A stretch of 7,755 nucleotides of DNA from Candidatus Tectimicrobiota bacterium (GTDB lineage: Bacteria; JACPSX01), in assembly GCA_016193065.1 (NCBI GenBank), contig JACPSX010000190.1, positions 1-7,755 of the forward strand. Direction: 5' to 3'. The position numbers and the translations under genes are program-made. The notes beneath the pieces were generated by a model. It was not told where the DNA came from, made no database searches, and saw nothing but the letters and a program-made list of their open reading frames with translations. How positions within the stretch are numbered: the first letter of the stretch is position 1; each line of letters opens with the position of its first letter. Of the stretch, positions 3,046 to 6,860 are shown piece by piece.

Positions 3046-3764
3046 ATGCTGGCAGAACTGTTTGCGCTCCTGGCCTCTCTGGGCTATGCGGCTTCTTACG
3101 TCTTCGCCAAGAAGGCGCTTAAGGGATCGGATCCCCTGACCGGAGTCCTGCTCTCGGTGGTGGCCGGGTCCTCCCCCGCTCATCCCTCATTTACGCCACC
3201 GAACCTTTACTGACCGTGGTCGCGGCCCGTTGGTTCTTGGGGGAGGTCCTGACCTTGCAGATCCTTCTCGGGACCGTGCTCATCATCCTGGGGGTGATGA
3301 ACTTAAGCCAGGAGAAGCGGCAGCAGCGCCCGTGGCGTCCGCAAGACCTCCTCTATGCCGTTCTGGCGACCGCCTTCTACGGCCTCTCCTCGGTCATCCG
3401 CAAGTGGGGCATCCGGGAGATCCCGGATCCCGTTCTGGGCGCCGCCGTCAATTCCCTGGCCGCCGCGATTCTCGTAGGGATTTTCACTTCTGTGCGCCGG
3501 GGAGAAGGCCGTCCCGCCATGGGAAGATCTGCCGGCTGGTATTACGTGGCTTCCGGCATCTCCGCGGCTACAGCAATCCTTTTCGTTTTTATGGCGCTGA
3601 GCTATGGAGATGTCGTGGTAGTCTCCCCCTTGATGAGCACCCGCCCCCTGTTTGCCATTCTCTTGAGCTTCCTGTTCCTGCGGGATGTGGAGCGTGTCAC
3701 TTGGCGGATCTTCCTGGGGGGTGTGCTGGTTGTCTTAGGGTCGGCGGCCATTACCGGGCGCTGA
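3046..3764 (+). pseudogene. Broken EamA-type (DMT superfamily) permease
   Basis: Two halves of one membrane transporter lie in different frames. The first starts at ATG 3046 (GGAG 4 bases upstream) and encodes an EamA-like opening helix with AASYVFAKKALKG; it stops at TGA 3211-3213. The second is in another frame from about 3177 and reads RSSLIYATEPLLTVVAARWF, the usual end of EamA domain 1. It then contains a complete second domain, including RKWGIREIPDPVLGAA and GDVVVVSPLMSTRPLFAILL, and stops at 3764. Intact family members are about 290-300 residues with ten membrane helices. Here roughly 60 residues (around helices 2-4) are missing between the halves, so a deletion with frame change near 3165-3185 is the simplest reading. 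A shortened product starting at GTG 3216 would retain about 182 residues and might still be made. A sequencing or assembly error would explain the frame change but not the missing residues. Confidence 0.75.
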
Positions 3765-3937: not shown

Positions 3938-4531
3938 GTGGGGGTCTATACCCGGACGGGAGATAAGGGAGAAACGGGGCTTGCCGGGGGGCGGCGGGTT
4001 GCAAAGGATTCTTCCCGGATCGAGGCCTACGGGACCGTGGACGAGCTCAACGCGACCGTGGGGATTGTCAGGGCCTTGAATCGGGACCTGCGCAAGCACT
4101 CCGCCGTCCGCGCCGAGTTGGAGGAGGTTCTGCGCCAGGTGCAGCAGCAGCTTTTTGATCTGGGAGCGGATCTGGCCACCCCGACGGAAGAGGGCCGTCC
4201 CGTCACCACGCGGATCGGCGAGTCCCAGGTCAAGGAGATGGAAGCGCTCATGGACCGCTGGCAGAAAGACCTGAAGCCGCTGAAGTCTTTTGTCCTCCCC
4301 GGCGGGGGAAAGTTAAGCGGTTTCCTGCACCAGTGCCGCACCGTGTGCCGCAGAGCGGAGCGCCAGGTCGTGAAGCTTTCCCGGCAGGAAGACGTGGGGC
4401 CCTGGCCCCAGATCTATCTGAACCGGCTCGGGGATCTTTTCTTTGTTCTCTCGCGCTGGATTTCCCATCATCTCCAGGAATCGGAGACCCTCTGGGAAGG
4501 GGGATTAGCCTCCCGGCCCCGGCGCCGCTAA
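3938..4531 (+). CDS. Cob(I)alamin adenosyltransferase, PduO type
   Basis: This 197-residue protein transfers the adenosyl group of ATP to cob(I)alamin, making adenosylcobalamin in the cytoplasm. Its length and motifs fit the PduO/MMAB family. The N-terminal ATP-binding segment is YTRTGDKGETGL (4-15), followed by RIEAYGTVDELNA (27-39). FVLPGG (118-123), the helix RTVCRRAER (134-142) and IYLNRLGDLFFVLSRW (159-174) follow; the conserved arginines and the NRLGDL core are present. The start must be the GTG at 3938: a TGA in the same frame lies at 3932-3934, and the GTG gives the normal opening MGVYTRTGD. No clear Shine-Dalgarno sequence precedes it. The gene stands alone on its strand and ends tail-to-tail with a SelW-like gene, their stop codons overlapping by three of four bases. 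No B12-dependent enzyme is in the window. Confidence 0.93.
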   Translation: MGVYTRTGDKGETGLAGGRRVAKDSSRIEAYGTVDELNATVGIVRALNRDLRKHSAVRAELEEVLRQVQQQLFDLGADLATPTEEGRPVTTRIGESQVKEMEALMDRWQKDLKPLKSFVLPGGGKLSGFLHQCRTVCRRAERQVVKLSRQEDVGPWPQIYLNRLGDLFFVLSRWISHHLQESETLWEGGLASRPRRR

Positions 4532-4767
4532 GGTTTTTGAAGCTCTTGAATCTTGGCCAGTATCTCTTCGGACTTCGGGAAGCGACCGGTCTGAAAGTGG
4601 GAGAAGATAAGACTGCCGTCGATCCGGACGTCGAAGACACCGCCGCTGCCCTCGATAAGCTTCGATTCAAGCCCCGTGCTTTTGCGGATTGCCTGCTGCA
4701 AACTTGCAGCCTGGGGTTTGTAGTTTCACTCCCCGCAGTAGGTGATGGTAATTTCCATGAGCTTCAT
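4528..4767 (-). CDS. SelW-like Rdx-family selenoprotein (UGA = selenocysteine)
   Basis: The minus strand encodes a 79-residue thioredoxin-like Rdx (SelT/SelW/SelH) protein if the TGA at 4728-4726 is read as selenocysteine. The redox motif is then C11-G-E-U14 in the loop after the first beta strand (MEITITYCGE), exactly where SelW proteins have CxxU or CxxC. Downstream similarity is strong: NYKPQAASL (15-23), GGVFDVRIDG (42-51) and TGRFPKSEEIL (60-70), ending at TAG. A bacterial SECIS-like hairpin follows the TGA. An AGGAGG (minus strand, 4777-4772) precedes ATG 4767 by 4 bases; an in-frame ATG at 4758 is an alternative start. It lies 40 bases after the aldo/keto reductase gene on the same strand and is probably the last gene of that operon. 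SelW-type proteins are thought to act as small thiol redox proteins. A standard gene caller would miss this gene, because no ATG follows the TGA. Confidence 0.85.
4695..4728 (-). promoter_or_regulatory. bSECIS-like hairpin just after the in-frame UGA
   Basis: Immediately downstream of the TGA (4728-4726) the minus strand forms a perfect 6-bp stem, GCTGCA/TGCAGC (4710-4705 with 4700-4695), closed by the four-base loop AGTT. The loop G is the second loop base and lies 23 bases after the TGA. Bacterial SECIS elements recognised by SelB generally have a short stem with a G among the first loop bases about 16-37 bases past the UGA, so this one fits on both counts. Confidence 0.7.
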
Positions 4768-6683: not shown

Positions 6684-6860
6684 GTCCTTTACGGACTCAG
6701 GGGCAGCGTCTGGACGAACGACATCAGTTTGGCCATCGAAACGGCCCGCAGCTGGATCAACGGCGGCAGCCGCCACTTTATCGGCGCCCCCTTTGGAGGC
6801 TATAAGCAAAGCGGGCTGGGACGAGAGGAGTCGCACGTCACCATCAACGTGCGCGTGTAG
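6684..6860 (+). pseudogene. Aldehyde dehydrogenase C-terminal remnant
   Basis: The last 58 codons of a plus-strand frame ending at TAG 6860 read as the C-terminal end of an NAD(P)-dependent aldehyde dehydrogenase: [17 protein letters not shown], then [25 protein letters not shown] and a short tail. Intact enzymes are about 480-500 residues, so over 85% of the gene is absent; the codons upstream in this frame do not resemble the family. Two internal shortenings are also apparent. About six residues are missing between ETAR and WINGG, where an RLRAGT-type segment is usual. About eleven are missing between GREES and HVTINV, where a LEELLSYTQIK-type segment is usual. Both keep the frame. With no start signal and no catalytic Cys region, this is a decayed fragment. 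Confidence 0.7.

Follow-up and report, generated by a model that had tools for sequence, protein, structure and literature searches.

The minus strand of the window, the whole 7,755-nucleotide stretch of DNA that was analysed, very probably encodes a SelW-like, Rdx-family selenoprotein of bacterial type, with an in-frame TGA inserting selenocysteine (Sec) into a thioredoxin-like CxxU redox motif. The features of the locus are as follows.

4528..4767, minus strand: gene for a SelW-like selenoprotein (Rdx family), 79 codons including U14, stop TAG (translation, Pfam Rdx, TIGR02174)
4726..4728, minus strand: in-frame TGA, putative Sec codon at the second position of C11-G-E-U14 (TGA at this codon in 20 of 24 other matching genomes)
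4695..4710, minus strand: bSECIS-like hairpin of 6 bp with loop AGUU (folding and published bSECIS limits, PMC13188914)
4770..4779, minus strand: putative strong Shine-Dalgarno-like GAGGAGGAG upstream of the ATG (judged from the sequence)

Translation from 4767 to 4528 with the TGA read as U yields MKLMEITITYCGEUNYKPQAASLQQAIRKSTGLESKLIEGSGGVFDVRIDGSLIFSHFQTGRFPKSEEILAKIQELQKP, followed by TAG. The preliminary description had claimed a 79-residue protein with U at position 14, a single TGA at the second redox position of a CxxU motif, and Rdx-family similarity on both sides of it, and each of these points is borne out. The TGA at 4728-4726 is the U14 codon, in the context YCGEUNY near the N-terminus. 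When it is read through, Pfam Rdx (PF10262) matches residues 5-74 (E 2e-18, 66.8 bits, cut-off 22.6) and NCBIfam SelT/W/H TIGR02174 matches residues 6-74 (63.4 bits, cut-off 34.2), so that the similarity extends to both sides of the TGA. The span of 4528-4767 and the frame also stand, but the strand, left unstated earlier, is minus. The word hidden is justified where ORFs are called naively: a plain ORF listing at the locus holds only a 57-residue TTG-start ORF 3' of the TGA and a 256-residue antisense ORF. The gene would be missed or cut short by Sec-unaware gene callers.

The homolog search covered 145 genomes including the window's own, i.e., 144 others, and matched the SelW-like protein at 25 places in 24 other genomes. 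The exact CxxU codon is TGA in 20 of them, in most cases ahead of NY, with no other interruption of the frame across the domain. These 20 genomes each represent a different family, and their proteins are 35-55% identical to that of the window; together with the window protein, the C11 and U14 columns are invariant (21/21 sequences). Homologs of the Cys form make up a more distant CxxC branch with CRW or CGW at the motif. Within the phylum of one relative, another 48 close matches (78-103 bits) all read through a single TGA, which lies at the same CxxU codon in each of the 29 that were fetched. The earlier suggestion that close homologs might have a Cys or Ser codon here, the TGA then being an error, is answered by the 20 other genomes. 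Because all of these have TGA at that codon, the TGA can for practical purposes be regarded as neither a sequencing error nor a nonsense mutation private to the window genome. In taxonomy, the relatives compared have only the domain in common with the window genome, so its lineage seems to lack close relatives in this set. Genomes from the phylum of G084 (G186, G195, and G194, with loci L089, L095, and L097, and their kin) often have more than one SelW-like gene: a close one plus one or two that are more distant, some with the TGA and some lacking it.

The TGA is followed by the hairpin GCTGCA-AGTT-TGCAGC at 4710-4695 on the minus strand. It had been described as a 6-bp hairpin 23 bases after the TGA; the stem is indeed 6 bp and the loop G is nucleotide 23, but the stem starts 15 nucleotides past the TGA. 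Published limits for bSECIS elements are a loop of 3-9 nucleotides, a stem of 4-16 bp, a G in the first two loop positions, a spacing of 16-37 nucleotides, and a minimum free energy (MFE) of -7.5 or lower (PMC13188914). The hairpin lies within every one of them, with a loop of 4, a stem of 6, G as the second loop base, a spacing of 21, and MFEs of -8.0 kcal/mol for the hairpin and -10.9 kcal/mol for 50 nucleotides. Taken alone, it is weakly significant and slightly out of the ordinary: a fold as good as that of the native hairpin arises in 4.3% of synonymous recodings, the dinucleotide-shuffle z-score over 50 nucleotides of the region is -0.57, and about seven distinct perfect hairpins of 6 bp and 4 nucleotides occur in the window. 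Rfam gave no significant match over the locus or the whole window. The case rests on protein conservation and the comparative data, the contribution of the hairpin alone being modest.

A comparison of 21 homologs, drawn from different families and counting that of the window, points to constraint at the level of RNA. In 18 of the 21, a stem no shorter than 5 bp carries a well-spaced loop G, where synonymous recoding predicts 4.8, and 16 of the 21 have a hairpin of -5 kcal/mol within the published loop limits (6.2 expected). The serine codon in the loop is AGY (AGT or AGC) in 13 of 13 cases, versus 24 of the 85 serines encoded at other positions of these genes (Fisher 7e-7), a bias that points to selection on RNA. 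The homologs are related, so these hairpin and codon statistics overstate independence; their families are, however, distinct. The 29 relatives from one phylum have little or no hairpin excess, with no hairpin of loop up to 6 nucleotides where 3.2 are expected and 7 against 3.5 when the loop is widened to 9 nucleotides; some have larger loops. Their loop codon is AGT in 28 cases and the glycine codon GGT in the other one. An AGY serine at the loop gives an easy additional check on whether a Sec codon is genuine in the SelW-like family.

The genome search proposed earlier for selA, selB, selC, and selD was successful in part. The selB gene is present over its profile cut-off and is intact (639 residues), 259 bases from a contig end. 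Two selD genes were also found over cut-off in the same genome, each with one in-frame Sec-type TGA.

L063, 8424-9350, plus strand: selD, one of two copies
L064, 3960-4886, minus strand: selD, the other copy

The TGA contexts are SHGAGUGCKISP in one copy and RCAGUAGKLGPGDL in the other. The U of SHGAGUGCKISP presumably occupies the position of the catalytic Cys17 in E. coli SelD. Both TGAs fall in the catalytic cysteine region, within motifs that differ (SHGAGUGCK and RCAGUAGK). All formate dehydrogenase alpha matches, considered as a possible extra selenoprotein, lie in frames without an internal stop and carry no TGA evidence.

The genes for SelA and tRNA-Sec were not found. NCBIfam and Pfam profiles detected no selA in the genome assembly, and the best match of the tRNA-Sec covariance model on the genome is a tRNA-Trp, the others checked being Ser, Leu, Gly, and Tyr tRNAs. 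A pattern search of the genome for tRNA-Sec gave 17 matches, none of them a tRNA and no more than a reversed-pattern control, and neither gene is in the 259 bases upstream of selB. These searches perform well elsewhere: the same selA search was positive in every one of the 20 TGA-form genomes, and the tRNA-Sec model matched over cut-off in seven of eight relatives (59-77 bits), with ARAGORN assigning the candidates checked in three of three relatives to tRNA-Sec with anticodon UCA. The eighth relative, G139, has selA, but only a tRNA-Ser was matched there, which shows that tRNA-Sec can be absent from a fragmented assembly. The two genes are 1.3 kb apart in G084 and on a common contig in G054; thus, a single gap could hide both. 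Their absence would count against the Sec reading if the assembly were complete. Since it is 86% complete and in 294 contigs, an assembly gap is the likely cause, and selA and tRNA-Sec are probably located in the unassembled part of the genome.

The missing genes are also what would be expected of a former selenoprotein gene that is now a recent relic in an organism that lost Sec decoding (selA and selC). That history is very unlikely in a genome where selB is intact over 639 residues, both selD genes are intact but for their Sec-type TGAs, the SelW-like frame is itself intact, and the assembly is incomplete. A still smaller likelihood attaches to a pseudogene, in which an Rdx gene acquired a nonsense mutation or TGC or TGT was misread as TGA by sequencing error. 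Another broken gene nearby, the split EamA frame described below, fits such decay, as do the undetected selA and tRNA-Sec, but 20 other, distant genomes have TGA at that codon too, the frame is intact on both sides of the TGA, and codon choice 3' of it is constrained at the RNA level. The comparative data refute the pseudogene in practice. Equally improbable is the true absence of standard SelA and tRNA-Sec, in which case the UGAs would be decoded by a tRNA and a Sec synthase too divergent for the profiles to detect. A genome-wide reassignment or readthrough of TGA, with no selenocysteine involved, has a negligible chance of being correct: nothing in its favour was found, TGA ends four ordinary genes in the window (E1 dehydrogenase, hydroxyisobutyrate dehydrogenase, EamA, and thioesterase), which indicates an unaltered genetic code, and the in-frame TGAs of SelW and SelD occupy positions of Sec type.

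For the selenoprotein, SelB carrying Sec-tRNA(Sec) would bind the mRNA hairpin just downstream of the UGA, where selenocysteine would be delivered in place of termination. We infer Sec insertion at U14 and a thiol/selenol redox activity of the protein. The function of SelW-like proteins has been called unclear, although the motif hints at a redox role and an interaction with glutathione has been found (PMC1088965, the Sargasso Sea paper). The most likely role is that of a thiol/selenol oxidoreductase, possibly tied to glutathione or another small thiol.

Rdx proteins of known structure matched by profile are 2fa8 (Atu0228), 2obk, and selenoprotein W (2npb), which place the window protein in a common family with them; as a family member it would be expected to have a thioredoxin-like fold. 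The motif of 2fa8 and 2obk, the more distant bacterial homologs, is one we take to be CxxC. The eukaryotic 2npb has its SECIS in the 3' UTR (PMC1088965), unlike the hairpin just after the TGA here. SelW-like CxxU proteins of bacteria were described between 2005 and 2008 and ranked there with the commonest marine selenoproteins (PMC1088965, PMC1794560, PMC2398784). The window gene resembles those from Geobacter, Symbiobacterium, and marine metagenomes (same sources) in its small size, its Rdx profile match (residues 5-74), its CxxU motif, and the bSECIS-type hairpin that comes after the TGA, with no difference of substance beyond a host lineage that has no close relatives in the set searched. 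Bacterial members of the family were recognised two decades ago, and the window gene is an ordinary further member that leaves the understanding of the family unchanged. For a bacterial lineage with sparse sampling, it adds one SelW-like selenoprotein and evidence that Sec is used.

The genes around the SelW-like gene, identified by profile matches, encode a cobalamin adenosyltransferase, an aldo/keto reductase, and a thioesterase, and point to no specific pathway. The aldo/keto reductase and thioesterase genes lie upstream on the same strand. Because the three genes share a strand and the aldo/keto reductase gene is only 40 bases away, they could be co-transcribed. The EamA transporter frame is in two pieces on the plus strand, 3046-3213 and 3216-3764, the first of which loses similarity near 3170; this looks like a deletion, frameshift, or assembly error. 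At about 6690-6860 on the plus strand is a short open stretch that presumably resembles an aldehyde dehydrogenase at its C-terminal end; the remainder of such a gene is lacking, and the stretch is likely a gene remnant.
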